64,000 nucleotides of DNA, from the NCBI RefSeq assembly GCF_029240175.1, contig NZ_JARBTM010000016.1, positions 62,001-126,000 of the forward strand, written 5' to 3'. The notes beneath the pieces were generated by a model. The model saw nothing but the letters and a program-made list of their open reading frames with translations, was not told where the DNA came from and ran no database searches. Positions 5,815-28,919 of the stretch are shown one piece after another (the first letter of the stretch is position 1; every line of letters begins with the position of its first letter). The stretch comes from Anaerosolibacter sp. Its GTDB lineage: Bacteria; Bacillota; Clostridia; Peptostreptococcales; Thermotaleaceae. Position numbers and translations under genes: made by a program.

Positions 5815-6037
5815 GCTTTGAAGGAGCACAGTAGCTGTCATGGTTACAACCCAGAGAGCAGATCGGTAGGTGAGAGATCTGTAGTACATGACCCAGTGAA
5901 ATACACTCTGGAGCTTCGAAGGCCAAACCTTCGACGGTTTCCATCCGTTATCATGGTTTGAGGCATGTTTATCATGTAAATTAAGGTGGTACCACGGGTT
6001 TTCTCGTCCTTACGGATGTAGAAGCCCGTTTTTTTAT
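5815..6037 (+). promoter_or_regulatory. T-box leader (tRNA-Tyr sensing) of tyrS
   Basis: The leader has the AGAGAG element of stem I (near 5853), a specifier loop GTGAAATACACTCTGG with the tyrosine codon TAC at 5902-5904, and the canonical T-box AAGGTGGTACCACG (5983-5996) that forms the antiterminator. The bulge TGGT would pair with an ACCA tRNA end. A GC-rich hairpin ending CCCGTTTTTTT (about 5994-6037) is the terminator. Uncharged tRNA-Tyr should stabilise the antiterminator and allow tyrS transcription. The specifier codon agrees with the downstream gene. Confidence 0.95.
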
Positions 6038-6062
6038 TTTATAACAAAGGAGGTTTTTATGT

Positions 6063-7289
6063 ATGGCAAATGTTTTTGATATCCTACAAGAACGTGGATT
6101 TATCAAGCAGACTACCCACGAAGAAGAGATCCGTGAGCTTCTCGGAAAGGAGTCTTTAACTTTCTATACAGGCTACGATCCTACAGCCGACAGCTTACAC
6201 GTAGGTCACTTCTTGCAAGTAATGGCCATGGCTCATATGCAGCGGGCAGGCCATAAGCCCATTGTACTCATTGGCGGCGGTACAACCATGGTAGGTGATC
6301 CTTCTGGAAAAACTGATATGAGAAAGATGCTTACCTTTGAAGAAATACAGCAGAATGCGGAACGCTTCAAGGTCCAGCTTTCTAAGTTCCTAGATTTCTC
6401 TGAAGATAAGGCTATCATGGTGAATAATGCTGATTGGCTGATGAATCTGCAGTATGTCCCATTTTTACGAGAGGTAGGCAGACATTTCTCTGTCAACCGT
6501 ATGCTGACAGCAGAATGCTTCAAAAGCCGTATGGAAAAGGGTTTATCTTTTCTAGAGTTTAACTACATGCTGATGCAGTCCTATGATTTTCTGGAGTTAT
6601 ACAGAAGATATGGGTGTAAACTTCAGCTGGGCGGTGATGATCAGTGGTCCAATATCATTCAGGGCGCTGACCTCATTCGTAGATCTGAAGGCGCTGCCGC
6701 CTATGGCATGACCTTCACCCTTTTAACCACCAGTGAAGGAAAAAAGATGGGCAAGACAGAATCTGGTGCCCTTTGGTTAGATCCAGAGAAAACCTCACCC
6801 TATGAGTTCTACCAATACTGGAGAAACGTGGATGATGCTGACGTAGAAAACTGCTTAGCCTTGTTAACCTTCCTGCCGATGGAAGAAGTTCGCCGTCTCG
6901 GTGCATTAGAAGGCTCAGAAATCAATCAGGCGAAAGCAATCCTTGCCTTTGAGGTAACAAAGCTTGTCCACGGAGAAGAAGAAGCAAGAAAAGCTGATGA
7001 AGCAGCAAAGGCTTTGTTTGGCGGTGGTGCATCTTTGGAGAACGTTCCTTTCACAGAGATTCCCCGCTCTGAATTCACAGAGGGTATGGATGTTATGGCG
7101 TTACTGACAAAAACAAACTTAATTCCATCCCGAAGCGAGGGTCGTCGTCTTGTACAGCAGGGTGGCCTCGTAATTGATGATATAAAAATAACCGATCCTC
7201 AAAAAATCATCCATGAAGATGATTTCAAGGATGGTACTTTGATGATCCGTAAAGGCAAAAAGGTATACCATCAGGTTCGTCTTGTATAA
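6063..7289 (+). CDS. tyrS: Tyrosyl-tRNA synthetase
   Basis: The 408-residue protein charges tRNA-Tyr with tyrosine. It has the class I signatures: a HIGH-like motif HVGH starting at residue 46 and a KMSKS-like motif KMGKTESG, plus a tyrosine-binding stretch [12 protein letters not shown]. The C-terminal S4 RNA-binding domain covers about residues 345-408. The length fits the TyrRS family. The ATG at 6063 has AAAGGAGG 7-8 bases upstream. It is preceded by a T-box leader with a TAC specifier and followed by a perfectly symmetric terminator shared with the convergent gene. Confidence 0.97.
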
Positions 7290-7330
7290 CATAAAAAAAC
7301 CGCTTAACAGCGGTTTTTTTATGTTATACA
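7283..7330. terminator. Shared bidirectional terminator between tyrS and the GAF gene
   Basis: A 22-bp perfect inverted repeat with a TAAC loop (core AAAAAAACCGCT/AGCGGTTTTTTT) works on both strands. The stop codons of both convergent genes lie inside its arms. Confidence 0.9.
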
Positions 7331-7824
7331 ATCTTAGACCAATCCATATATTTATTCAATGTATCCACAAACTTCTGAAGGCCCTTGGCATCGGCTTCAT
7401 CAAATCGCTCCTTGATCGGGCTGTCTATATCCAATACCCCCATGAGCTTTCCTTCATGGACAATGGGCACCACAATCTCTGACTGGGATGCAGCATCACA
7501 GGCTATATGTCCTGGGAATAAATGGACATCCTTTACCACTTGGGTTTCCAAGTCTCTGGCTGCTGTACCGCATACCCCGTTTCCTATAGCAATATGGGTG
7601 CATGCAGGCTTACCTTGGAAAGGTCCCAATACCAGTTCTCCATTTTTATATAGATAAAAGCCTGCCCAGTTGATTTCATCCAGCAGTAACCATAATAGGG
7701 CAGATGCATTGGAAAGATTGGCCAGCCAGTCGGGCTCCTCGCAGATCAATCCTGTAAGCTTTAAATTCATATAATTATAAAATTTTTCTTTGTCATCGGT
7801 GACAATTCTTTTTATATCATTCAC
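7324..7824 (-). CDS. msrC: Free methionine-(R)-sulfoxide reductase, GAF domain
   Basis: The 166-residue protein is a single GAF domain of the fRMsr (YebR/MsrC) type. It has the family motif NWAGFYL and three cysteines at residues 75, 85 and 109; the spacing of 10 and 24 residues equals that of the catalytic cysteines of the Escherichia coli enzyme. It should reduce free methionine-R-sulfoxide in the cytoplasm. A GTG at 7824 is the best start because GGGGAGG lies 8 bases upstream; an in-frame ATG at 7851 would put that site inside the gene. It is the last gene of an operon after diaminopropionate ammonia-lyase. Confidence 0.88.
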   Translation of the reverse strand: MNDIKRIVTDDKEKFYNYMNLKLTGLICEEPDWLANLSNASALLWLLLDEINWAGFYLYKNGELVLGPFQGKPACTHIAIGNGVCGTAARDLETQVVKDVHLFPGHIACDAASQSEIVVPIVHEGKLMGVLDIDSPIKERFDEADAKGLQKFVDTLNKYMDWSKIV

Positions 7825-7841
7825 GTACGTTTCCTCCCCTT

Positions 7842-9047
7842 TTATCCCCATAAAATTCTTCTGTAGCTTTCGGGATCGGTATCCCCTTCCGTACTAATCA
7901 CAAGAATTCTAGCATCCTTTGTAATCTTTAAAACTTCTAATAGATGTTCATATCGCTGATCTTCTCTTAACATATTCATAAGTCCTATCCCTACAGCTCC
8001 CGATTCTCCTGATATGATCTTCATGTCCCCGGGCAGGGGATTGGCCAATACGCGGATTCCCTTTTCCGCTATATAATCGCAGCAGGAAAAATATGCATCG
8101 GAATAGTCTCTCAAAATCTCCCAACCAATGGGATTAGGCTCTCCACAAGCCAATCCTGCCATGATGGTGTTTAAATCTCCTGTTACAGCATGGGGCTTTC
8201 CGTCTCCTATTTGGGCAGATTTATAAATACATGCCGCTTTCTCCGGCTCCAAAATGATGGTAATGGGTCGATCTTCCCCAAATAGTGCCGCATAGTAACC
8301 TTGAATTGCTCCTGCAAAGGAACCTACACCCGCCTGAAGGATGATATGGGTGGGTTTCTCAATCCCCTGTTCTTTCAGCTGTTCTTGGACTTCGGCCCCT
8401 ATGGTTCCATATCCCTGCATGATCCAGCCAGGAACTTCCTCATACCCTTCCCAAGCTGTATCTTGAATCACATGCCAGCCAAACTTCTCAGCATTTTCCG
8501 CAGCCAGCCTTACTGCATCATCATAGTTTAGATCTGTGATACTGGCTTCAGCCCCTGTGGCTAGTATGGCATTCAATCTTTCTTGAGATGATCCCTTTGG
8601 CATGTACACCACTGCTTTTTGACCCAGCTCCCTGGCTGCCCAAGCCACAGCCCTGCCGTGGTTGCCATCGGTGGCCGTGGTAAAAGTAATCTCTCCCAGC
8701 TTATCTCTGGTTTCCTTTGCCTTTAATCTTTCAAAAGAAAGCTCCTTGATATCTGTATTTAGTTTGTTCGCTAAGAATTTGCCAATGGCATAGGATGCTC
8801 CCAATACCTTGAAGGCATTGAGCCCGAATCGATAGGATTCATCCTTGACCCAAAGCTTATCTACCTCTAGATAGGCTGCCAATTGATCCAAGCTGATACA
8901 AGGGGTTGGTTGGTAGCTTTCAAACTTCCGATGAAAGTTCCTTGCTTGGTCAATTTCATCTGTTGATAAAAAGCCCGGGTTTGCTTTTTTATCCTGGGTA
9001 TTCCGAGCCTGACGGTTGATAATCCACTGTAATTCCCCTGACCTCAT
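7842..9047 (-). CDS. dpaL: Diaminopropionate ammonia-lyase
   Basis: The 401-residue protein is a fold-type II PLP enzyme. Lys80 in FGLNAFKVLGASYA is the expected PLP lysine, ATDGNHGRAVAWAAR and the glycine-rich HIILQAGVGSFAGA segment bind the substrate and phosphate. It converts 2,3-diaminopropionate to pyruvate and two ammonia molecules. The length and N-terminus fit the YgeX family. GGGGAG lies 6 bases before the ATG. It sits 17 bases downstream of a methyltransferase gene and just before the GAF gene, all on the same strand, so the three are probably one transcript. No YgeW/YgeY-type purine-catabolism neighbours are seen here. Confidence 0.94.
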   Translation of the reverse strand: MRSGELQWIINRQARNTQDKKANPGFLSTDEIDQARNFHRKFESYQPTPCISLDQLAAYLEVDKLWVKDESYRFGLNAFKVLGASYAIGKFLANKLNTDIKELSFERLKAKETRDKLGEITFTTATDGNHGRAVAWAARELGQKAVVYMPKGSSQERLNAILATGAEASITDLNYDDAVRLAAENAEKFGWHVIQDTAWEGYEEVPGWIMQGYGTIGAEVQEQLKEQGIEKPTHIILQAGVGSFAGAIQGYYAALFGEDRPITIILEPEKAACIYKSAQIGDGKPHAVTGDLNTIMAGLACGEPNPIGWEILRDYSDAYFSCCDYIAEKGIRVLANPLPGDMKIISGESGAVGIGLMNMLREDQRYEHLLEVLKITKDARILVISTEGDTDPESYRRILWG

Positions 9048-9064
9048 ATGCCACTCCCCTATTC

Positions 9065-10234
9065 CTAAAATATCTCCTTTAATCTTTCTGCCAATGCCCT
9101 TTCCATATACGGATCAATCTGCCAAAAGGCCTTAAACCTCTTATATTCTTCCACAGCATGGGCAGGAATCCTGCCTGTTTTTACTGCCCGAATCAATAAA
9201 TTTTTCGGTGTATGCTCCATATCAATAAACTCCAACATCTGGGTTGAATAACCCATGAGTTCCAACAGGTTTGCCCGCACGCTGTCTGTAATCAAGCTGG
9301 ATAATCTTTCTTTAATAATGCCGTGCTTTTCCATAGGTGCCATGATTTCATTGTGAATCTGGGGCAGAAGCTCATGCTGACAACAGGGTACCGATAATAT
9401 CACATCGGCATCCCATTCGATGGCTTTTACCAGAGCCGCATCGGTGGCAGTGTTGCAGGCGTGGAGACTCACCACCATATTTACCTTCTCTTTTCCCTGG
9501 AATTTTCCAATATCTCCAATAAGAAACTGTAAATCTTCATATCCCAATTCCTTTGCCACAGCATTACAGTGGTTGACCACATCCTTCTTCAGGTCTAAAC
9601 CAATGATATTTACCTTCAGCTTCCGTATATCAATCAAGTAATGGTACAACGCAAAGGTTAAATAAGACTTTCCACAGCCGAAATCAATAATATGAAGGGG
9701 CTCTTCCTTCCCTTCCAGGGCTGGCATCACATCCGCCACCATCTCCAAGAAGCGGTTGATTTGTCTGAACTTATCATACTTGTTTGCCAATACCTTTCCT
9801 TTTTCATTCATGACCCCCAGGCGAATAAGAAACGGATTGGGTGCATTGTCAGGGATAATATATTGCTTTTTCCGATTATGGGCCAATTCTGTCTGCTCCT
9901 TGGTCGCTTTCTTCTTTAAAATATTGGCCTTCATCTTCTTACTGATTAATATCTGGTAATCTGCTTCCATGGTATAGCATTGCCCTTGCTTGAAATAGTT
10001 CTCCAGAAGCTCCATAACCTTTGTTATCGTTTCCGTGGAACTAAGATTTTCATGGGTAACCTTCTTTTCATAATGGTATGTAAATTGATATCGCCGCTCA
10101 CCCTTGAGGATTACCGGACGGAGATTCACTTTTTGAAAACCTTCAGGATCCTTCTTTCGCACATTGCTAAGTACCATGTCGATGAGGATTTCATTTTCTA
10201 TGATTCGTTCCACTAGTTCCCGTACATTCTCCAT
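9065..10234 (-). CDS. SAM-dependent methyltransferase (Methyltransf_32 type)
   Basis: The 389-residue protein has a class I methyltransferase domain in its middle. The SAM-binding motif I is IIDFGCGKSYLTFAL (about residue 182), the acidic motif II is IIGLDLK, and motif IV is VVSLHACNTATDAAL. This pattern resembles the family that includes eukaryotic GSTCD-like proteins. The N-terminal 150 residues look like a separate substrate-binding region with basic stretches. RNA or protein methylation is possible, but the substrate is unknown. It is probably the first gene of the operon with diaminopropionate ammonia-lyase. Confidence 0.82.
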   Translation of the reverse strand: MENVRELVERIIENEILIDMVLSNVRKKDPEGFQKVNLRPVILKGERRYQFTYHYEKKVTHENLSSTETITKVMELLENYFKQGQCYTMEADYQILISKKMKANILKKKATKEQTELAHNRKKQYIIPDNAPNPFLIRLGVMNEKGKVLANKYDKFRQINRFLEMVADVMPALEGKEEPLHIIDFGCGKSYLTFALYHYLIDIRKLKVNIIGLDLKKDVVNHCNAVAKELGYEDLQFLIGDIGKFQGKEKVNMVVSLHACNTATDAALVKAIEWDADVILSVPCCQHELLPQIHNEIMAPMEKHGIIKERLSSLITDSVRANLLELMGYSTQMLEFIDMEHTPKNLLIRAVKTGRIPAHAVEEYKRFKAFWQIDPYMERALAERLKEIF

Positions 10235-13445: not shown

Positions 13446-15191
13446 TTATATCTCTACGCCACATACCCGATTGCGTCCTTGGTCTTTCGCATGGTATAAT
13501 TCCCGATCAGCGGCCTCGATCAGTTCATAGATGCTGCTTTCCTTTGACGGAACTACATTGGCTACTCCCATGCTAATGGTAATATTCCGTCCCGCATGGG
13601 ACTGAGGATGATTAATCTCTAAGTTTTCAATGGCTTCCCGCATTTGCTCCGCAATCACAATGCTTCCTGCATAATCAGTGTTCGGCAAAATAATGGCGAA
13701 CTCTTCACCGCCATGTCTCCCGATAAAGTCCGAAGAACGCTTCAATGTATTGGTTAAGGTCTTTGCCACATCTCGCAGGCAATCATCACCCATGGGATGT
13801 CCAAAATAATCATTGAAATTTTTAAAATGATCCACATCCACAAATATCAAAGATAAGGGTACGCCCTCCCGCAAACACCGATTCCATTCCTTTTCTAAGG
13901 TATTGTTAAAACTCCTTCGGTTCGGTATCCCTGTTAACTCATCAACAAAGGACATCCGCTCCAGTTCTTTATTCACCTGCTCTAAACGTTCCTGCAGCTC
14001 TTTTCTTTTTAAAATTTCTTTTTGTAATTCCTTATTGATGGCTTCTAATTGTTCTGCTTTGCTTTCAATGTCTTCATTCTTCTGCTTCAACTCAATATTT
14101 TTTAAAAGATTAATCTCCGATTCTTTCTGAATTTTATCCACCTGATATTCTATGGTTAAAATCTTCAATTTTTCCTCAAGATTATCTGTGATAACCTTCT
14201 TCTCCATATCACGGTATATTTTATAGTGGTATAGGGCCTGGGCCAAATCCCCTCGTTCCTCATGATACTGAGCCAAATATGCATGTACCGTATAGATCTT
14301 CTTATTGGCAGTCGCTTCTTCTGCCATCGTTAGCGCCTTTTGAAGAAAATCAAGGCCTTCTTCATATCGTCCTTCTTTTGCATAGTAGCTTCCTAAATTC
14401 AATAAAACATCCACCTGATAAAACTTATTCTCATACTTTCTTAATATATTCAGACTCTGAAGATAATACTCCAGTGCGATCTCCTTTTGTCCAAGCTTCT
14501 CATAGACTTGTCCAATGGTGTTCAGCACTTCCCCTTTGCTGATATGATCACCGATTTTCTCACTGATTTTCAGGCTCTCTTCATAGCTATTTAAAGCATT
14601 TTCATTTTGTCCAAGGCTGTTGTAGATATGACCGATATTCATACGGATGACAGCCACATTGTAGATCTTATTAATTTTCTCGCTAATTACAAGGGCTTTA
14701 TTATAATTCTCCAATGCTTCTGAGTATTTTTCCAACTCTCGGTAGATTTCTCCGATATTATTCAATGTACTAGCCTGCAGCTCCTCATTTTGAATCTCCT
14801 GAGCAAATCTCAAGCTTTCTCCAAAGTACTCCAATGCCTGCTCATATCGACTAAAATAAAAATAGTTTATTCCCACAAGGTTTAATGCCCGCATCTCACC
14901 TTCCCGATCTCCAAGTTCTCGAAAAATAGTCATGGCATCCAATGCATTTATCATACAACCATCATAATTGGACAAACTCCGGTTTGCATAGCTCATCATC
15001 AAAAGACTTCTGGCTATGCCCCACGTATAGTTTCTTTTCTTCGCCAAAGCATAGGCCTGTTCTGCCAATGCCAAGGCCCTCTTTGGGTTTCTGATATTGA
15101 TCTCCTTGGAAACATTGTTTAGCCGATCTACTTTTTCTTCATTCTCCGCAGTACATATCCCCGCTTCTATCTCACTTAAGTTAGAAGTCAT
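13446..15191 (-). CDS. TPR-repeat diguanylate cyclase (GGDEF)
   Basis: The 581-residue protein has a long array of tetratricopeptide repeats (about residues 25-345, repeated A..Y..AL..Y..AL units), a coiled coil (about 350-415) and a C-terminal GGDEF domain. The active site is GGEEF in GRHGGEEFAIILP and the substrate loop is DVDHFKNFNDYFGH, so it should make cyclic di-GMP. There is no membrane segment; the TPR array is the likely sensor or partner-binding part. The ATG at 15191 follows AGGGGG; the TTG at 15242 has no ribosome site. A stand-alone PilZ protein in this window is a possible effector. Confidence 0.93.
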   Translation of the reverse strand: MTSNLSEIEAGICTAENEEKVDRLNNVSKEINIRNPKRALALAEQAYALAKKRNYTWGIARSLLMMSYANRSLSNYDGCMINALDAMTIFRELGDREGEMRALNLVGINYFYFSRYEQALEYFGESLRFAQEIQNEELQASTLNNIGEIYRELEKYSEALENYNKALVISEKINKIYNVAVIRMNIGHIYNSLGQNENALNSYEESLKISEKIGDHISKGEVLNTIGQVYEKLGQKEIALEYYLQSLNILRKYENKFYQVDVLLNLGSYYAKEGRYEEGLDFLQKALTMAEEATANKKIYTVHAYLAQYHEERGDLAQALYHYKIYRDMEKKVITDNLEEKLKILTIEYQVDKIQKESEINLLKNIELKQKNEDIESKAEQLEAINKELQKEILKRKELQERLEQVNKELERMSFVDELTGIPNRRSFNNTLEKEWNRCLREGVPLSLIFVDVDHFKNFNDYFGHPMGDDCLRDVAKTLTNTLKRSSDFIGRHGGEEFAIILPNTDYAGSIVIAEQMREAIENLEINHPQSHAGRNITISMGVANVVPSKESSIYELIEAADRELYHAKDQGRNRVCGVEI

Positions 15192-15324
15192 CCTATTTTC
15201 CCCCTGTGTACTTAAAATTACCCCGTATCCTAAATATGACAATCCATTAATAGTATATTACATAAAACATGATTTGAAAATTCCAAAAATATAATTTCTG
15301 TAATTGAGCCTTTGTTCTATACCA

Positions 15325-21263: not shown

Positions 21264-21372
21264 CATCTAACGATGCCTTCGCTAGGGGAACCTAGTTCCC
21301 CTTCGACGGCTGCTAAGCAGCCTGAGCACCCCTCTGACTACGGCATGGGAAACTTCCCCTGCACCCCTGATT
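21264..21372. repeat. Structured intergenic repeat J
   Basis: The 381-base gap between two minus-strand genes contains a compact structured block. It has hairpins AGGGGAACCTAGTTCCCCT (21284-21302) and GGCTGCTAAGCAGCC (21308-21322), enclosed by ATGCC (21273) and GGCAT (21342), followed by CACCCC-rich sequence. The rest of the gap (21122-21263 and 21373-21460) shows only promoter-like AT-rich sequence. Confidence 0.6.
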
Positions 21373-21460
21373 TTATATTGTAAGATATTCCAAAATCCTT
21401 ATACTGCTTCTTCTTACTAAGGCTGATACTAAACAAAATCTATACTTTCTTATACAATAG

Positions 21461-21498
21461 AAAAATCTGAAAGGTTCTACTGACCTTTCAGATTTTTT
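21461..21498 (-). terminator. Terminator of the matrix operon
   Basis: A 15-bp perfect stem (AAAAATCTGAAAGGT/ACCTTTCAGATTTTT) with a 7-base loop directly follows the stop codon of the coiled-coil protein gene. Confidence 0.88.
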
Positions 21499-21503
21499 AA
21501 CGA

Positions 21504-23210
21504 TTATTCTTGTGGAAGATAAGTTTCCTCTTCATCTTCCTTTTTGATAATATCTAATTGGATATCCGATTTACCATCATTATAAATTACCTCTGGTTGT
21601 TCCTCTGTATCATCCGCTTCAGTTGTTTCAGTCTCAGGAACTGTATTCAAGTCCTCGGATTCTTTAGATGTCTCAACAACTATTGGGTTTGTCGTCTCGG
21701 CTCTTACTGGTTCCTGGTTTTCCCCTTGTTCTGTAGCATCTTCTTCAGGTTCTGTAGACTCTTGCTGCTGATCCTCTTGGGCCTCGTTAGCTGGTATTGT
21801 AACATCTATCGGTTCACCTTGTTCTGCATCTGTCTCCCCAGTATCAGGTAATTCTGGCACTTCCTCTGTTGGTGTAGTATCTGCTGAATCAGTTCCTTCC
21901 GTATCTTGCTGCGTATCCCCTGGCTGTTCAATAGGGTTTTCTTCCTCTTGTGGGGGCATCTCACCCACTAGGTCTGAAGGCTGCTCTACTTGTGTTTGCC
22001 CATTGCTTGCATCTGGCTGTGACGTAGTTGGTGCCTCTGTACCAGTGGATGGTGCAGTAACAACAGGATTACTTACGTTTCCAATCGCACCACCTGTAGA
22101 TGCTTGACTTCTTAACATGTCAATTTCTTGCTCCATAGCTATGAGCTCTTGCGTTAGGTATTGATTTTCACTAATTAGGGAATGAATGTCCCGTTGGTAT
22201 TCTTCATTTTGTAGTTTTAATTTATCGACCTGAGCTTGTAAATCTTCCTTTTCACTCAGTAGTGTTTCTTTTTCAACTTCTAGCTCATTCAGTTGAATAC
22301 TTAGCTCTGCTTCTATTGTCTTCAGTTGAGCGATTTCCTGTATTTTCTCATTTAATTGATGCACGAGATCTACTACTACATTATAGATGTCTTGTAGATA
22401 TTGGGATGCCTTAGGAATAATAATATCTAAAATCTGTTTTTGTTCCTCTGTGATGGCCAACGGACTGATGGGTACTTGAATTATTTCATTTTCCGCTATA
22501 TCATCCTCTATTAGCGTAGTATTGAATGCCCTTAGGGATATTTCTTCACTACCTAAGTCTGCTGTTAACAGATTAACGAGTTCCTCTTGAGACTGTTCTT
22601 CTTGGGTCCAGTTTGCCTCTTCCCAGGTTTTCTCTTGAGCAATATCGGTAATAAATCTCGTAATCTGTGCATCCCACTGGGATGAATCCGTTATATTTTT
22701 ACCTAATGCTTGATCTCTCAAATATTTCCCTGTGAAGGTAATGTCTATCTTTTCATCTATAAATTCGTTGAGATACTTTACATAGATACTCCCTTTGATT
22801 ATATCTCCGTTTTTTAATAAAGAGAATTTGCTTTGATCTACACAAATTTTGATATTGGCTTCAGCAATATCATTTCTTTTGACACGTATTGGATTGATAT
22901 GAATAATATATTCTGCGGCTTCCCCTTCTACTGCAAAATATAGAATAGGCTCATAAAAATCCAATTTTTCTGAATCTGCTCCCTTAAGTGTAATCTTTGT
23001 GGGATTCTCATTGCTAGGTGTTACAGCAAGTTCTGTAAAGATATCCGACGTGGATGCAGCACTGACCTCTATACTCCTACTCAATGTACTGCTAAACCAC
23101 GAGTAGGTGTCCATAGTTCCCATTAGAGCCATGCTTACCAAAAATCCTGACAGAAGACAACATATAACGCGAAACGTTAGAAATCGAATACTGTTCTTTT
23201 CTTTATTCAC
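21504..23210 (-). CDS. Coiled-coil surface protein with SipW-type signal peptide and acidic tail
   Basis: The 568-residue protein starts with a SipW-like signal peptide whose end reads GTMDTYSWFSS, comparable with the TYAWF motif of TasA/CalY proteins. Residues about 50-175 form a beta-rich domain similar in style to TasA. A strong heptad coiled coil covers about 270-365 (LNELEVEKETLLSEKEDL). The last 195 residues are low complexity, rich in Glu, Thr, Gln and Pro. An internal LPDTG pentapeptide occurs in this tail but no membrane anchor follows, so it is not a standard sortase signal. A GTG start follows GGAGG by 7 bases. It is the last gene of the matrix operon. I infer an extracellular accessory or spacer protein. 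Confidence 0.75.
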   Translation of the reverse strand: MNKEKNSIRFLTFRVICCLLSGFLVSMALMGTMDTYSWFSSTLSRSIEVSAASTSDIFTELAVTPSNENPTKITLKGADSEKLDFYEPILYFAVEGEAAEYIIHINPIRVKRNDIAEANIKICVDQSKFSLLKNGDIIKGSIYVKYLNEFIDEKIDITFTGKYLRDQALGKNITDSSQWDAQITRFITDIAQEKTWEEANWTQEEQSQEELVNLLTADLGSEEISLRAFNTTLIEDDIAENEIIQVPISPLAITEEQKQILDIIIPKASQYLQDIYNVVVDLVHQLNEKIQEIAQLKTIEAELSIQLNELEVEKETLLSEKEDLQAQVDKLKLQNEEYQRDIHSLISENQYLTQELIAMEQEIDMLRSQASTGGAIGNVSNPVVTAPSTGTEAPTTSQPDASNGQTQVEQPSDLVGEMPPQEEENPIEQPGDTQQDTEGTDSADTTPTEEVPELPDTGETDAEQGEPIDVTIPANEAQEDQQQESTEPEEDATEQGENQEPVRAETTNPIVVETSKESEDLNTVPETETTEADDTEEQPEVIYNDGKSDIQLDIIKKEDEEETYLPQE

Positions 23211-23239
23211 ATTTTCACCTCCTTCTCACAAAGTCCTCC

Positions 23240-24484
23240 TTATTCATTTCTTGTGTGTTGCTCATGATATCCCAAAAGCTTACAGATCATCACAAAGGCC
23301 TCTGCCCTAGTGATATCATGCTGAGGCTTAAAGGTATGGTCAGGATATCCCAAAATCACTTCATTGCTTACAGCCGTCTTTACATATTCTAACGCCCAAT
23401 CCGATATTCTATCCCTATCTGTAAATGTTAAAGCCCTTTCTATTTCAGCCTCCTTGTCAAAGCCTCGCATCAGTACCGTAGTCATTTCCTCCCTAGAAAT
23501 CTCTTTTCCAGGTCTAAATATTTTTCCTGGATAGCCTTTAAATATACCCTCTTCTGTGGTTGTTATGATGTAACCCCTTGCCCAGCCCGGAATAGGATCA
23601 AAGTATCCTGAGAAAAACTTATCTTGCTCCTCTAGCTTCAACGCCTTTCCTATAAGTACTGCTGTCTCTGCTCTAGTAATTTTTTCATCAGGCTTGATAG
23701 ATCCATCTGGATATCCTTGGACAATATCATGCTCTACCAGAGTCACAATACAATCATGGGCCCAATGCCCACCGATATCTGGAATAATATCTACAGGCTC
23801 TTCTTCAAATACTGGTTCATCTTCATTGTCTTTGTCATCCTCTGGCTGGTCTGAAACAGGATTCTCATGGGCATTGATGACAAAGTCCACCGTTGCCCTT
23901 ACGCCCTGCAATCGGTTGTCTGCCTCTTCTTTCATTTGCACAGTATATTCTAAGTCTATGAATTGATTCTTATTTATACTAAATTGATCTAGTAAAGATA
24001 AATTTGCACCTTTTCTTCCTGCAATATCTTCCTGATATAACATTTCTAGAAAACTTTTATTGTAGATTGTATTTGATATTAAAAAATTCGGAAATATACC
24101 CTTTTTAATCGTTAACTTCATGCTTTCAGCAAAGTATTCCCGTAGGCCTTGATCAGAAACAGTTACATAGCTTTGCCCCTCTAGCCTTTTAAGGCTCATT
24201 CGCAATGCAAGATTGTCTACTTGTATCCTTTGAGAGCCTCCATTATATATTCTCAAAATACCACTCCGGCTTTTTCCAGGTGCCCAAAGCCCTTCTGCGA
24301 CATTCCCTTCACTTTTAAAGATAGGATTTCCTAGGGTATTCTGATTATCATAAAGGTTAAGTATCACGTTGGGTTCTTTTTCTGCTCCATATGTAATAGT
24401 GCCTATTAATTGACTAAGTAATGCTACAAATATTAAGGCTATGGTCAGAATAGATGTTATGGCCTGAATATATCTTTTTCCCAT
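23240..24484 (-). CDS. TasA-like N-terminal domain fused to three SLH domains
   Basis: The 414-residue protein has a signal peptide (about residues 1-34), a beta-rich region (about 35-210) with the camelysin/TasA-like run APGKSRSGILRIYNGGSQRI, an acidic linker (about 212-238), and three SLH repeats (about 240-400). The SLH motifs HWAHDCIVTLVEHDIVQGYPDG, ITRAE-type and GYPDHTFKPQ elements bind secondary cell-wall polymer. I infer a wall tether for the fibre protein encoded upstream, a role comparable to TapA in Bacillus but by a different anchor. A ribosome site (GGGGAGGGGG) precedes the ATG. It is separated from the fibre gene by a strong hairpin. Confidence 0.8.
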   Translation of the reverse strand: MGKRYIQAITSILTIALIFVALLSQLIGTITYGAEKEPNVILNLYDNQNTLGNPIFKSEGNVAEGLWAPGKSRSGILRIYNGGSQRIQVDNLALRMSLKRLEGQSYVTVSDQGLREYFAESMKLTIKKGIFPNFLISNTIYNKSFLEMLYQEDIAGRKGANLSLLDQFSINKNQFIDLEYTVQMKEEADNRLQGVRATVDFVINAHENPVSDQPEDDKDNEDEPVFEEEPVDIIPDIGGHWAHDCIVTLVEHDIVQGYPDGSIKPDEKITRAETAVLIGKALKLEEQDKFFSGYFDPIPGWARGYIITTTEEGIFKGYPGKIFRPGKEISREEMTTVLMRGFDKEAEIERALTFTDRDRISDWALEYVKTAVSNEVILGYPDHTFKPQHDITRAEAFVMICKLLGYHEQHTRNE

Positions 24485-24560
24485 TCCTTTCCCCCTCCCC
24501 TCTTTTATAAATTCTAGAAAAACTTAGATTCTAAGTACTTCTGGAATTTATAAATTTTTA

Positions 24561-24590
24561 TAGATAGCCGAGCTTTTGCTCGGCTATCTA
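24561..24590 (-). terminator. Intercistronic hairpin between fibre and tether genes
   Basis: A perfect stem TAGATAGCCGAGC-TTTT-GCTCGGCTATCTA has only a weak T tract on the transcribed strand. It probably acts as a partial terminator or mRNA stabiliser, lowering expression of the two downstream genes relative to the fibre gene. Confidence 0.6.
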
Positions 24591-24652
24591 TATGATTTAT
24601 TTATGCTTTTTTTGCACTATTCATAAACTTGAAAAATAAACAATTATTGTTT

Positions 24653-25543
24653 CTACTGAACTTCAAACTTAATCCAATCTAAATAATAATCATTTTCAGG
24701 TCCTAGTCTTAATCCAGCCCAAACTTCTTCTGCAGCAGTAACAGTTACTGTGCGAGTTTCACCTTTTGGAACATTTACTAGATTGTATGATTCTCCTATT
24801 TCTTGATCTTTTAATTCTCCACCCTTAATTATTGTATCTGCCCATTGGCCCCTAGTTCCTGCTTCTCCATCTACTCTGTAATCAAAAGCATATGCACCTG
24901 TTGTAGGATTTACAAATTCAAATGTAATCTGATTTCCAGCTACTGTATAGTTAATGTGCGGTCTGTTTAAACCTGCATTTGTAGCATTTTGACCTGAGTC
25001 TATAGTCTTAACAAGTGCGTATGTATCCCAACCAGTCCCATTATTTTCAATTTGAGTTGCGTCAAATACAAAATTAAAGCTATCTAGTAAGTTTTGATAA
25101 TTATTATCTGCAGTTGTAGGAAGTTTAAATGTGAAAGTAACGTCTTTATTTCCACCTGCTGCAATTGTACCTAGTGAAACATTATTAAAACTATTAATTC
25201 CTACATATTCACCGCCATTAACCTTAACTTGTATATTATGTTGTCCGTTATACAATAAAGTGTTGTTATTAGATGTAGCACTTACCTTGAATTGGAATGG
25301 TATTGTACCAGTATTTTGAATGTTTATAGTTTTTTGTTGTTCCCAGCCTGGATATATATTTCGAACATCTACTACATTTTCTGCTACTTTATTAGCTCCT
25401 GGGCCAGTTATTTCTAATTCACCAGCTTCAAAATAGTTATTCTGGCTAGTAGCTGTGCTTGTAAACCATGCATAGGTTCCCATACCGATACCAAACATCA
25501 TAACACCGATTAATAAAATGCTTAATAAAACCTTTTTATTCAT
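24653..25543 (-). CDS. TasA/CalY-like fibre subunit with SipW-type signal peptide
   Basis: The 296-residue protein begins MNKKVLLSILLIGVMMFGIG followed by TYAWFTSTATSQN, the classic SipW-dependent signal end. The mature part contains the camelysin/TasA-like fold signatures: ITGPGANKVAENVVDVRNIYPG, the NTGTIPFQFKVSA strand and FTFKLPTTADNNYQNLLDSF. The C-terminal 100 residues form a further beta-rich domain. It should be exported, cleaved by the neighbouring SipW and polymerise outside the cell. The ATG at 25543 has GAGGAGG 7 bases upstream; an open frame back to 25651 lacks a ribosome site. It follows sipW by 205 bases. Confidence 0.85.
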   Translation of the reverse strand: MNKKVLLSILLIGVMMFGIGMGTYAWFTSTATSQNNYFEAGELEITGPGANKVAENVVDVRNIYPGWEQQKTINIQNTGTIPFQFKVSATSNNNTLLYNGQHNIQVKVNGGEYVGINSFNNVSLGTIAAGGNKDVTFTFKLPTTADNNYQNLLDSFNFVFDATQIENNGTGWDTYALVKTIDSGQNATNAGLNRPHINYTVAGNQITFEFVNPTTGAYAFDYRVDGEAGTRGQWADTIIKGGELKDQEIGESYNLVNVPKGETRTVTVTAAEEVWAGLRLGPENDYYLDWIKFEVQ

Positions 25544-25748
25544 TCCTAAATCCTCCTCAAATATTGTTTTTTTCTTTCTCTCTGTGTGATACAATAAACT
25601 AATAAGTATTTTTTTCTTTACTTCTTGGGTGATCTTAGCGGAGATACCCATTTTTTCTTTGCCTTTTTCTCATACTCCCCCCTATCAAATTATCTTTTGG
25701 CCACTATCACCAAATATGCTCTAACCATTAGTCCATCTTCTATTCCAG

Positions 25749-26312
25749 CTATACATCCATAGGATTTTTGGGATTGGTTTTATTTCCCTTGCCCAATTCC
25801 ATCCATATGTTTTTTAGCTCAGAAGCAATCAATAAAAATATAGGTACAATGATAAACAATATAAAACCCTTTGGACTTCTGGCAAAATTTGCGATGTATC
25901 CGCCCTTTGGGATATTGAATGCCAAACTTCCTAACAATTGTTCGTTAGTTACCAGGGCATGATCCTCCGTATTGTTGGCGTCTCCTTTGGTTCTAAAGCT
26001 TAGTTCCCCATTCTCCTGTATCACTTCAACCACCCTATGGGTGACCAAGGTACTTTGATCTACCCGATAGGTGACCACATCTCCAACTTCAACTTCTTTT
26101 GTTTCAATCTCCTTAACAAAGATCATATCTCCTGGCTCTAATAGTGGCATCATACTGCCTGTCAAAACAGACATAGGTTGGTACCCCACAATATTTGGTA
26201 TATAACCTGGATCTTTCTTAGACTGAAACATGGTAAATATGGCAAATCCAATAGCTACTACTAAGACAGCAGTTAATATATTCCCTGCCCATTTTAAAAC
26301 TGCCCTTATCAT
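25749..26312 (-). CDS. sipW: Signal peptidase I, SipW (ER) type
   Basis: The 187-residue protein has an N-terminal membrane helix (about 10-30), the catalytic serine in SVLTGSMMPLLEPGDMIFV and, in place of the usual bacterial lysine, a histidine in THRVVEV, which defines the ER/SipW class. The GDANNTEDHALVT stretch is also typical. A second hydrophobic segment lies near the C-terminus (about 148-168). It should cleave TasA-like precursors; three genes downstream encode secreted proteins of which two have SipW-like signals. It is the first gene of the operon and is preceded by a leader RNA with a terminator hairpin. Confidence 0.93.
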   Translation of the reverse strand: MIRAVLKWAGNILTAVLVVAIGFAIFTMFQSKKDPGYIPNIVGYQPMSVLTGSMMPLLEPGDMIFVKEIETKEVEVGDVVTYRVDQSTLVTHRVVEVIQENGELSFRTKGDANNTEDHALVTNEQLLGSLAFNIPKGGYIANFARSPKGFILFIIVPIFLLIASELKNIWMELGKGNKTNPKNPMDV

Positions 26313-26440
26313 CTGTTCTTTTCCCCCTTAGCATAAAAGATTACGTCTCTTCATCGGTTTAAATTATTACCTTATTTTTCCTTAATATACATATTGCTCT
26401 TCATTTAAAAACTCATAAGCTTATATTGGCCATAACCAAT

Positions 26441-26583
26441 AAAAAACCGCTCCTAATGCAATCATCTATGCATAAGGACCGGTTGCACTACTTACTCCAT
26501 ACATTCCAAGTGCCCAAATACAGAATGTACTTCACAGTTTTCCACACAGTTGTATGTTGTCATGCCACACTTCCCTTTCTAAT
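26441..26583 (-). promoter_or_regulatory. Leader RNA with attenuator hairpin upstream of sipW
   Basis: On the minus strand a long hairpin, pairing ACCG, TCCT and ATGCA with their complements across two single mismatches (26446-26483), is followed by TTTTTT (26446-26441). It lies 130 bases before the sipW start. Just upstream is a second stem TACATTC/GAATGTA (26499-26529) and a short cysteine-rich reading frame. The arrangement resembles a transcription attenuator. It does not match any riboswitch consensus that I recognise. The remainder of the 558-base gap contains only AT-rich sequence and the terminator of the neighbouring kinase. Confidence 0.6.
26492..26563 (-). CDS. Possible 23-residue cysteine-rich leader peptide
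   Basis: The short frame MTTYNCVENCEVHSVFGHLE plus three residues has an AAAGGGAAG ribosome-like site before its ATG and three cysteines. It ends inside the leader RNA just before the terminator hairpin, as in translated attenuators. It could also be a chance frame. Confidence 0.25.
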   Translation of the reverse strand: MTTYNCVENCEVHSVFGHLECME

Positions 26584-26870: not shown

Positions 26871-28919
26871 CTATGCAGAATAAATATCTGCAAACTCTAC
26901 ATTGACTCTTTCTATGAGGCTTTGTCTCGTGCGGTCTCCCTTTGTTTGATTAATATCTTCTTCCAGCACCCATACAGGGAATTCGAGGATAAAGACACTT
27001 CCCTTGCCCTCTTCGCTTTCACATGAAATACTGCCTCCCTGCATCTCCACCAAGGATTTTACCAAAGAAAGTCCTATACCGCTTCCTTCGTGGTTTCTTG
27101 TAAGAGATTTATCCACCTGCCGAAATCTCTCAAAGATCATCTGCTGCTTATCCTTTGGTATACCAATGCCTGTATCCCTTACAACAATCTGTATTCTATC
27201 TCCTTTATCATAAATATGAACCTGGATTTCTCCACCTGACCTTGTAAATTTCACAGCATTGGACAGAAGATTTAGCATGATCCTTTCCATGCTATCAGGG
27301 TCACAGGCCACGATTTTTTCTTCCACATCTGTATCGAAGGTGAGGTTCATTCCCTTCCCTTCCACATAATCCGCCACCGATAGTGTTATATTCTCTACTA
27401 CACTGATAATATCATGATTTGCCAAATGAATTTGAAAATACCCTGAATCCATCTTGGTAATATCAATCAAGTTATTCACCAGTCGCAATAGTCTGTTGCC
27501 ATTTTGTTTCATCACATGTAGATATCTATGGAACTTTACGCGCTTCTCTTCATCTACGCATTGTTCTCCCATGATTTGAAGCAATTGCTGGGTGCCCAAT
27601 ATGACATTCAATGGGGTTCGCAGCTCATGGGATATGTTGGCGAAAAACTCCGTCTTCACGATATCATATTCTATGGCCTCACTAAGGAGCTTTGTATTCT
27701 CCTCCACATTTTTCTGTAACGCCTCTGCTTGTTTTTTTGCACTGATATCCTGTACAAAGACTAGAAACATATGCTTGTCTCTATAGGGAATGGTTGTTAT
27801 CGTCACCTCTACATCCACCGTGCTACCATCCAACCGTCGAAGACTTCTCTCAGCTAAGTACAAAAACCCACCTCGTTGATTCAAAAATGCTATGTGCTCT
27901 TTCATTTTTCCTTGACCTACTTCCTCTTCGATAAATGAAAGAATATTTCTTTTTAACACCTCATCAGAAGAATCAGCCCCTAGAAGTCTTACCCCTTCCT
28001 GATTCACAAAGTCCAACTTGTTTTCATCATGAATAAATATAGCAATGGGTGAAAGATCTATCACTGACCTATATCGTTCTTCACTTTCCTTTAACGCTTG
28101 TTCTGTCTCTTTTAGCTCAGTAATATCTTTTACATATGCTAGAAATCCTTTTGGATTATCAGTTTTATCTGTAATCAATGACGCATTTAGGTATACCCAT
28201 TTGATCTCTCCATTTTTAGCAATGTATCTTTTCTCTATTTCAATAGATTTTATCTGTCCTTTTGACACTTGTTTAAAAAGCCTCGCTTCCTTTTGTAGAT
28301 CATCCGTATGGGTAATATCTTTAAAGTTCATGGTGAGCAATTCCTTTTCTGTATAACCCACCAGTTTACAGAAGCCAGGCTGCACCTTCGTTATTTTTCC
28401 ATCTAAGCTGCTTTGTATTGCCATCATCACGGCATGCTGCTCTGCCCGATCCAGATCCCCTCGCATTACCTGTAACGCTTTGTATTTTGTTCCAAAAATA
28501 TGATGTAACAAGCCTACAGAACCTGCTATGCCATACATGCCGAAATGATTGATCATCAGTTCCAGATGGGCCTCCTTTCCCAAGGCCCCTGTACCCTCAA
28601 TGCTAAACAAGAAACAATAAAGCAGGCTTAATCCTACACTTATGCCTCCCATCCACAATCCACCTATAGAAAAGGTATAAATAATAAGCAGCGCTAGCAC
28701 TACTGTGATATCAATCCTCATATTGGTTTCTGAATAAATTAACTGAGTTAGCAACATCGCACATATGGTAAGGATTGGGCCGCTGCCATACTTTAGTAAC
28801 TTCCTTGTCGGTATAGTCTCATCATTCTCCATCTTTCTCTGTTTTGCTGTTAGCCACTCCCTTGCTGTCTTTCCCATTTTCAGCATGTAATTTAGCCCCC
28901 GCTCTATTTTTTCTTGCAT
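26871..28919 (-). CDS. Membrane-bound PAS-domain sensor histidine kinase
   Basis: The 682-residue protein has about four membrane helices (about residues 50-145), two PAS/PAC domains (about 160-275 and 285-405), and a histidine kinase core. The phosphorylated histidine is in FFANISHELRTPLNVILGT, and the ATPase domain has the N box LLSNAVKFT, the G1 box RDTGIGIP and the G2 box GSGIGLSL. No response regulator is adjacent, so it is an orphan kinase, as is common for the sporulation kinases that feed Spo0A in Clostridia. That target is an inference. The start is uncertain: the ATG at 28919 has no ribosome site, and one 11 codons downstream follows a G-rich stretch. Confidence 0.88.
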   Translation of the reverse strand: MQEKIERGLNYMLKMGKTAREWLTAKQRKMENDETIPTRKLLKYGSGPILTICAMLLTQLIYSETNMRIDITVVLALLIIYTFSIGGLWMGGISVGLSLLYCFLFSIEGTGALGKEAHLELMINHFGMYGIAGSVGLLHHIFGTKYKALQVMRGDLDRAEQHAVMMAIQSSLDGKITKVQPGFCKLVGYTEKELLTMNFKDITHTDDLQKEARLFKQVSKGQIKSIEIEKRYIAKNGEIKWVYLNASLITDKTDNPKGFLAYVKDITELKETEQALKESEERYRSVIDLSPIAIFIHDENKLDFVNQEGVRLLGADSSDEVLKRNILSFIEEEVGQGKMKEHIAFLNQRGGFLYLAERSLRRLDGSTVDVEVTITTIPYRDKHMFLVFVQDISAKKQAEALQKNVEENTKLLSEAIEYDIVKTEFFANISHELRTPLNVILGTQQLLQIMGEQCVDEEKRVKFHRYLHVMKQNGNRLLRLVNNLIDITKMDSGYFQIHLANHDIISVVENITLSVADYVEGKGMNLTFDTDVEEKIVACDPDSMERIMLNLLSNAVKFTRSGGEIQVHIYDKGDRIQIVVRDTGIGIPKDKQQMIFERFRQVDKSLTRNHEGSGIGLSLVKSLVEMQGGSISCESEEGKGSVFILEFPVWVLEEDINQTKGDRTRQSLIERVNVEFADIYSA

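Follow-up and report, generated by a model that had tools for sequence, protein, structure and literature searches.

The described systems closest to the locus analysed here, a minus-strand gene cluster within 64,000 nucleotides of the genome of Anaerosolibacter sp. (contig NZ_JARBTM010000016.1, positions 62,001 to 126,000; this whole stretch is called the window and is numbered from its first letter), are found in Bacillus subtilis, Clostridium perfringens and Clostridioides difficile, and they are summarised from excerpts of the cited articles. The tapA-sipW-tasA operon of B. subtilis is controlled by SinR, and in TasA fibres residues 28-38 of one subunit fill the groove of the next (PMC9674648). 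TapA was once proposed to be the anchor of these fibres and is now seen as a strand-donating initiator (PMC10151520, PMC9674648). The sipW-bsaABCRSD operon of C. perfringens encodes SipW, the TasA-like protein BsaA, a kinase and a regulator; BsaA polymers are mainly extracellular and reportedly not tightly bound to the wall, and the excerpts mention neither a protein with surface-layer homology (SLH) repeats nor a riboswitch of the operon's own (PMC7395162). C. difficile has a cyclic di-GMP (c-di-GMP) class II regulon of pilA1, CD2831, CD3246 and CD3267, with type IV pilus or adhesin targets, and all four class II switches are described as 'on', whereas its class I switches are 'off' (PMC6200980); the 'on' behaviour of the pilA1 switch is also reported in PMC8470499.

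The window cluster shares with the B. subtilis operon a SipW-type signal peptidase, a TasA homologue with a SipW-type signal and a leader of donor-strand length, and a further protein that carries a SipW-type signal, a domain predicted to be a beta-sandwich, and a long tail. In contrast, no TapA homologue was recognised among the matches listed for the window, which has in addition a TasA-fold protein bearing SLH repeats, and a c-di-GMP-II riboswitch stands at the head of the operon in place of SinR control. SipW and a TasA-like subunit are also common to the window and the C. perfringens operon, whose kinase and regulator recur in the operons of some relatives (type B, below), and the C. difficile regulon shares with the window its riboswitch class, the predicted ON logic and surface-structure targets, although the target in the window is a SipW/TasA-type operon. 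This cluster is probably a c-di-GMP-induced, SipW-dependent operon for a wall-anchored TasA-type fibre, of which polymerisation, tethering and the response to the ligand are the parts that we infer.

The elements follow one another on the minus strand in the order riboswitch, sipW, TasA-like gene, SLH fusion gene, coiled-coil gene and terminator (Table 1). A first-pass annotation, made from the sequence alone, had proposed four genes of one minus-strand operon, and all four open reading frames (ORFs) lie where it placed them, in a cluster that recurs in relatives; the start of the TasA-like gene was taken as in that annotation, the longest ORF starting at 25651. The riboswitch lies inside the interval of the first-pass annotation, which named neither it nor the sortase-anchored counterparts described below. 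Upstream, a histidine kinase gene (26871-28919) has its own predicted terminator at 26737-26706.

Table 1. Features of the SipW/TasA/SLH cluster, in window coordinates
Feature	Position	Strand	Basis or details
Cyclic di-GMP-II riboswitch aptamer	26468..26551	-	RF01786, 72.0 bits (gathering 53.5), E 3e-14
Putative expression platform: intrinsic terminator hairpin 26445-26484 and T-run	26437..26484	-	-20.2 kcal/mol, 0/40 shuffles as good
sipW: SipW-type (Ser-His) signal peptidase, 187 aa	25749..26312	-	TIGR02228
TasA-like major subunit candidate, 296 aa, TYAWF signal end	24653..25543	-	PF12389 and TIGR04088
Hairpin between TasA-like and SLH genes, 15-pair stem	24559..24592	.	Terminator-like listing on + strand only
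SLH fusion, 414 aa: TasA-type domain ~23861-24382, three SLH repeats ~23297-23779	23240..24484	-	hhalign, predicted fold, PF00395
SipW-type-signal coiled-coil protein, 568 aa	21504..23210	-	Beta-sandwich ~22700-23108, coiled coil ~22098-22370, acidic Pro/Glu-rich tail
Predicted intrinsic terminator, cluster end	21461..21497	-	15-pair stem

The sipW product matches TIGR02228 with 116.5 bits (cut-off 51.85) and stays under the cut-off of the Bacillus SipW equivalog NF046067 (140.2 vs 190); its Ser53 and His92, which we take to be the peptidase dyad, agree with the Ser-His site that had been proposed. The TasA-like protein, put forward in the first-pass annotation as a TasA/CalY-like subunit with a TYAWF signal end, passes PF12389 (41.7 bits, cut-off 22.5) and TIGR04088 for the SipW-type signal (32.2 bits, cut-off 19), and it remains below the strict BsaA family TIGR04090 (24.4 bits, cut-off 60). 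When its family profile was compared with PDB sequences, the TasA fibre entry 8aur_A was matched at E 1.8e-7 and TasA 5of1 at 2.4e-7, with a weak match to AbpX (E 0.005). The leader of 17 residues is compatible with donor-strand polymerisation. By sequence, this protein is thus assigned to the TasA/M73 (camelysin) family, and fibre formation is predicted for it.

PF12389 is named for a camelysin metallo-endopeptidase, and the M73-type protein could accordingly be a camelysin-like protease in a secreted protease system that makes no fibre. TasA itself presumably belongs to the same family as PF12389, which we count against the protease. This assumption fits the excerpts on TasA fibres (PMC9674648). 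The sequence match to the fibre entry 8aur and the presence of several paralogous subunits in one operon (locus L034; L and G numbers are our handles for loci and genomes) speak against the protease as well, and make such a system very improbable.

Some variation is seen among the TasA-like proteins. About 110 extra C-terminal residues are encoded at 24653-25000 of the window, different extras are found in L026 and L024, and none in L034:5965-6480 and L027:7112-7747, so that a variable exposed domain on the fibre subunit is possible. L034 has four distinct TasA-like genes in one operon (5965-9764), one of them with the WYPG core of the SLH protein and yet a full leader. The hairpin that separates the TasA-like gene from the SLH gene lacks a T-run in the coding orientation. 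It may lower or process the downstream mRNA, and in this way could determine how much subunit is made relative to anchor.

The SLH protein is matched by PF00395 in three stretches (E 3.5e-38), with ITRAE/ISREE motifs in the repeats, while its N-terminal 200 residues have no Pfam match at E 1. The N-domains of ten orthologues align with eight TasA-like proteins, bridging sequences included, with an hhalign probability of 96.6 (E 5e-10). The bridges, L034:6551-7204 and L027:7866-8501, combine a TYAWF SipW-type signal with the WYPG / N-x-x-QG core of the SLH protein. A hidden Markov model (HMM) of the SLH N-domain matches the L034 bridge at E 2.6e-9, and a TasA-like HMM whose rows include both bridges matches the SLH fusions in 12 of the 13 loci L034-L046 (E 5e-9 to 7e-4). 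An AlphaFold2 model of the N-domain from 14 sequences (pLDDT 80.6, pTM 0.78) is matched by Foldseek to 5of2 (E 3.3e-5) and 8aur (E 1.2e-4), and TasA 5of1, 5of2 and 8aur are also its top PDB matches in VIA-align (Z 9.4, 9.3 and 9.3; 3.3 Å over 137 residues for 5of1_B), followed by a cannula protein at 6.6.

Three results weigh against this homology: with four pure TasA-like rows only, hhalign falls to a probability of 36.8 (E 4e-4), the TasA-like HMM misses the L046 fusion, and no TasA entry comes up when PDB sequences are searched with the SLH N-domain profile at E 10. As the pure-row comparison is weak, the homology leans on the bridging sequences and on the fold. Based on profile comparison, bridging proteins and predicted fold, the N-domain can be taken as TasA-like. 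The first-pass annotation had suggested a TasA-like domain joined to three SLH repeats and had left a TasA-like fold to be checked in both beta-rich proteins; both suggestions hold, by model for the SLH protein and by sequence for the family of the TasA-like subunit.

HMMs of the three secreted proteins were run at E 1e-3 against 2376 ORFs from 67 sources (the window plus 66 loci that contain other SLH proteins) and matched the window's own genes only, which speaks against a chance finding. SLH proteins are common in the window genome, with 9 matches including the fusion. CsaB, on which the attachment of SLH proteins depends in other species, is also encoded there (TIGR03609, 307.8 bits, cut-off 213.1).

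Among 98 relatives, a near-full-length fusion was found in ten genomes, together with a fusion cut by the contig end in G003 and a twelfth case, G042, on inspection. A wider scan of GTDB genome contigs, limited to the best 80 of 104 matches, adds at least six loci (L034, L036, L038, L042, L045 and L046), bringing the total to at least 18 fusion genomes; 18 fusion proteins are distinct, the closest pair being 75% identical. Some examples of the hosts are Anaerosolibacter carboniphilus (G001, the window's genus), Geosporobacter ferrireducens, G. subterraneus, Alkaliphilus transvaalensis, Natronincola peptidivorans, and metagenome-assembled genomes of Marinisporobacter and of the Peptococcaceae. 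SipW is encoded by 35 of the 98 relatives and by all 12 with the fusion (hypergeometric 1e-6, relatedness ignored), so the co-occurrence that the first-pass annotation had made its test is found. Moreover, sipW lies in the same cluster and on the same strand as the fusion in all 17 loci judged (for G003, contig C248, L175), L038 being left out because of a contig end. These loci are related by descent and the counts are not independent, which lowers their weight.

Two forms of the operon can be distinguished. Type A, the form in the window, has a short SipW, one or more TasA-like proteins, the SLH fusion and the coiled-coil protein. Type B has a HisKA_3 kinase, a LuxR-type regulator, small TasA-like and Ser-rich proteins, a SipW of 400 residues, one or more TasA-like proteins, DUF5305 and the SLH fusion; its families were scanned in L029 only, and the other type B loci were assigned by translation. 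The coiled-coil protein is absent from type B operons proper. G011 is mixed, with kinase and regulator followed by the type A set, L042 shows the end of a type A set followed by a type B set, L045 starts with the SLH fusion, and G013 has no coiled-coil gene up to the contig end. The type B SipW, e.g. L029 4170-5384, has an added hydrophobic N-terminal part of about 270 residues, in which no Pfam family was found at E 0.01.

The SLH and TasA-like proteins differ in the leader, counted here as the residues between the end of the signal and the first strand of the core. It has 16-17 residues in all eight TasA-like proteins measured, and 11 type B TasA-like proteins have leaders as long by eye, whereas it has 6-11 residues in all ten SLH fusions measured, of at least 18 found (6 and 10, set by eye, in L026 and L032). 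The leader starts with aromatic residues (WF, YF, YY) in eight TasA-like proteins. No TasA-like N-terminal donor strand was found in the SLH protein, as judged by leader length and motif-assigned cleavage sites. Having a short and mostly non-aromatic leader, the SLH protein should accept a strand and not donate one, and the SLH fusions, seemingly without a TasA donor strand, seem to be acceptor-only base subunits. Some points tell against this. The cleavage sites of SLH proteins were assigned by motif and eye, type B SLH leaders reach 10-11 residues, near the 11 of the TasA strand, and the first or second mature residue is aromatic in 2 of the 16 SLH fusions whose start is readable (G028, TF; L042, YD).

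Sortase-anchored counterparts of the SLH protein were found in four loci (L165, L166, L167 and L173) of the 14 SipW loci, from 13 genomes, that are without the fusion. In these proteins an ordinary signal peptide precedes the TasA-type domain, and the C-terminus carries LPXTG, a hydrophobic stretch and a charged tail; the leaders are non-aromatic, with about 9 residues in three of them and 12 in L167 (by eye on the alignment). Their N-domains match those of the SLH proteins (hhalign probability 96.3, E 1.5e-9) and the TasA-like family (95.3, E 2e-8), and the L173 protein is also matched by the SLH N-domain HMM (E 9.7e-7). Since LPXTG takes the place of SLH on a related TasA-type domain, the wall anchor looks exchangeable between the two. 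In addition, L165 and L166 each have two c-di-GMP-I riboswitches directly before TasA-like genes, besides the LPXTG-anchored TasA-type protein.

It could be argued that the SLH protein acts as an adhesin associated with the surface layer, or as a lateral binding partner, with a TasA-type sandwich, neither attaching a fibre nor ending a chain, as SLH proteins are common in the window genome, tethering is here a deduction, and the C. perfringens polymers are mainly extracellular (PMC7395162). The presence of the fusion within sipW clusters at every locus judged, the lack of N-domain HMM matches in the 66 loci of other SLH proteins, the short leader and the sortase-anchored counterparts in fusion-free sipW loci all argue against such an adhesin, which we regard as unlikely but deserving some weight; a base subunit of the fibre is preferred.

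The coiled-coil gene directly follows an SLH fusion gene in all nine loci in which it was found (the window, L023, L024, L026, L034, L036, L038, L042 and L164). On reading the sequence, its product shows the SipW-like signal (DTYSWF) and acidic tail that had been proposed for it, and no family is over its cut-off. Its signal and leader align with those of TasA-like proteins (hhalign probability 73), with a leader start of WF, WL, YF or FY in eight aligned coiled-coil proteins. No TapA family was seen among the 25 of 48 NCBIfam families listed for eight coiled-coil proteins (one row incomplete), and a profile comparison with the SLH N-domain gave a probability of 0.2. The model of its domain (pLDDT 74.5, pTM 0.60) is closest to a protease domain (Z 8.0), followed by many Ig- and PapD-like rows at Z 6.3-7.4, a level expected of a common arrangement, and TasA and TapA structures are absent among the listed fold matches. 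A TasA- or TapA-like assignment by fold was therefore dropped, since the matches are those of a generic beta-sandwich, and this counts against the fibre model. An internal LPDTG, examined as a possible sortase signal, was discarded because by eye it lies away from the C-terminus and lacks a hydrophobic stretch after it.

By analogy, the coiled-coil protein is a possible TapA-like initiator. Alternatively, it could itself be the base or anchor of the fibre, with the SLH protein building a separate, co-expressed surface coat: it retains the SipW-type signal and the aromatic leader, and TapA, its Bacillus counterpart with a comparable layout, donates its functional N-terminus and has a complete Ig-type fold and a dispensable flexible C-terminus (PMC10151520). 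However, no wall-binding or membrane part is seen in the coiled-coil protein, and it is present in 9 loci as against at least 18 fusion genomes and missing from type B operons proper, so that this arrangement is quite unlikely and the SLH protein is kept as the anchor.

At gathering threshold, a c-di-GMP-II riboswitch stands at the head of the cluster in 12 of the 17 loci that could be tested (the window, L023, L024, L025, L026, L028, L029, L030, L032, L034, L042 and L045), or 13 of 17 with the sub-threshold L036 (49.1 bits, E 9e-8). Ten genomes searched whole contain 15 c-di-GMP-II riboswitches over the cut-off, 9 of which head a SipW/SLH operon; by chance, placement in an 8-kb same-strand stretch would be expected in about 0.015 genomes, against 9 of 10 observed. 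Among genomes with SipW and no fusion, of which 13 of 23 were examined (11 at gathering; G055 and G018 at E 0.1), class II was found at the locus in one (G064) and pairs of c-di-GMP-I within the locus in G072 and G082. A Fisher test of class II, 12/17 versus 1/11 (the first 11 fusion-free genomes), gives p 0.002, relatedness ignored.

In the window, the last 17 bases of the aptamer, its 3' strand, are part of the 5' arm of the terminator, and the ligand-free minimum free energy fold of the leader includes the terminator. As the two structures share this strand, the bound aptamer and the terminator should exclude each other, which points to an ON switch. Such an overlap was found by a first script in 11 of 13 aptamers (the 12 at gathering and L036) and, with a looser T-run rule, amounts to at least 13 nucleotides in 12 of 13. 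Compared with 40 dinucleotide shuffles of the downstream part, the hairpins of 11 of the 13 aptamers are matched by 0-2 shuffles. The c-di-GMP-II element of the window is thus predicted to be an ON switch, its response to the ligand being deduced from the sequence.

On the other side stand several observations. No c-di-GMP-II riboswitch was found at G003, G013, G042 and L046 at the thresholds used, and with four testable loci lacking it the switch is not obligatory. The L034 overlap is weak (6 nucleotides) and its hairpin is matched by 5 of the shuffles, and the L042 hairpin is no better than shuffles (20/40). Promoter-like sites occur at chance level (19 found vs 19.0 expected), and no promoter is claimed. 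Because class I switches are 'off' in C. difficile, c-di-GMP need not induce all such operons, and the two class I loci may run in the opposite direction. The aptamer might therefore be an OFF switch or a relic in an operon mainly under other regulators, in keeping with the four testable loci without it and with the kinase and regulator of type B operons (one locus scanned), a pair also present in the C. perfringens operon (PMC7395162). Against this, the strand sharing with the terminator is kept in nearly all aptamers, all four class II switches of C. difficile are 'on' (PMC6200980), and the position at the operon head is retained with three different first genes (sipW, kinase and SLH fusion), so only a small probability is given to an OFF switch or relic, and an ON switch is favoured.

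The only other c-di-GMP-II riboswitch of the window genome (G000:C16:70106-70188; L033 ~8100-8190) precedes an apparent type IV pilus operon, as in C. difficile, with PilB-, PilT- and PilC-like proteins and a pilin by translation. The same genome has 25 GGDEF matches, one of them at 13446-15242 of the window, a GGDEF protein with TPR repeats on the same strand, about 6 kb beyond the operon end, that could supply c-di-GMP locally. Tandem c-di-GMP-I riboswitches (L023 8078-8352) lie before a secreted transglutaminase-like protein just upstream of the A. carboniphilus sipW operon. A Clostridiales-2 RNA (RF02937, 79.7 bits) lies at 21296-21376 of the window between the operon and an ATP-binding cassette (ABC) transporter gene, and also at L023:85-167 in the same-genus genome.

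In the mechanism proposed, a rise in c-di-GMP would fold the aptamer, which would capture the 5' arm of the terminator and allow RNA polymerase to read through. SipW would then cut the TYAWF-type signals off both the coiled-coil protein and the TasA-like protein. The latter would keep an aromatic leader of 16-17 residues to serve as donor strand, and its subunits would form polymers through donor-strand exchange in the manner of B. subtilis TasA. The SLH protein, with a TasA fold and seemingly no room for a donor strand, would only accept and so end the chain, whose end its SLH repeats would hold on the pyruvylated secondary wall polymer. The coiled-coil protein, with its TasA-like leader on a beta-sandwich domain, would likely be the initiator or the partner at the opposite end, like Bacillus TapA. 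The cluster may in this way be a clostridial biofilm apparatus. A more general proposition, about as likely to be right as wrong, is that the TasA-type fibres of anaerobic Gram-positive bacteria rest on a base subunit of their own, hitherto unrecognised. Its TasA-fold domain would have a groove and lack a donor strand, so that it could only cap a chain, and its wall anchor would be exchangeable by lineage between three SLH repeats and an LPXTG sortase signal. Such fibres would be under direct c-di-GMP riboswitch control, through class II (ON) switches at the SLH operons and, at two or more sortase-type loci, through class I switches that may act in either direction.

Regarding novelty, the SipW/TasA matrix fibre is known, and the SLH anchor, a base subunit that can only accept a strand, and control by a riboswitch appear, in part by inference, to be new. 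SLH repeats anchor surface proteins of the Sap, EA1 and SbsB type, and with these the window shares three SLH repeats and CsaB, its cargo being a TasA-type domain instead; we know of no SLH anchor in the archaeal bundling pili AbpA and AbpX. The fold of these pili is related to TasA (PMC9674648). In the literature searched, which covered openly licensed PMC articles, where absence is not absence in print, neither an SLH-anchored TasA-type protein nor a c-di-GMP riboswitch on a sipW/tasA operon was recognised. Excerpts of PMC7395162, PMC2614493, PMC8470499 and PMC6429828 likewise describe no riboswitch on sipW or tasA.

Even for Bacillus, the attachment of TasA-type fibres to the cell seems unsettled, and this operon offers a candidate base subunit whose lost donor strand can be read from the sequence, together with two natural versions of the anchor. 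It would also link c-di-GMP directly, through an RNA, to a protein-fibre operon in clostridia, where the C. difficile targets named are pili and adhesins (PMC6200980). Some anaerobes appear to switch on Bacillus-like biofilm fibre genes in response to c-di-GMP, with a different and exchangeable wall anchor.

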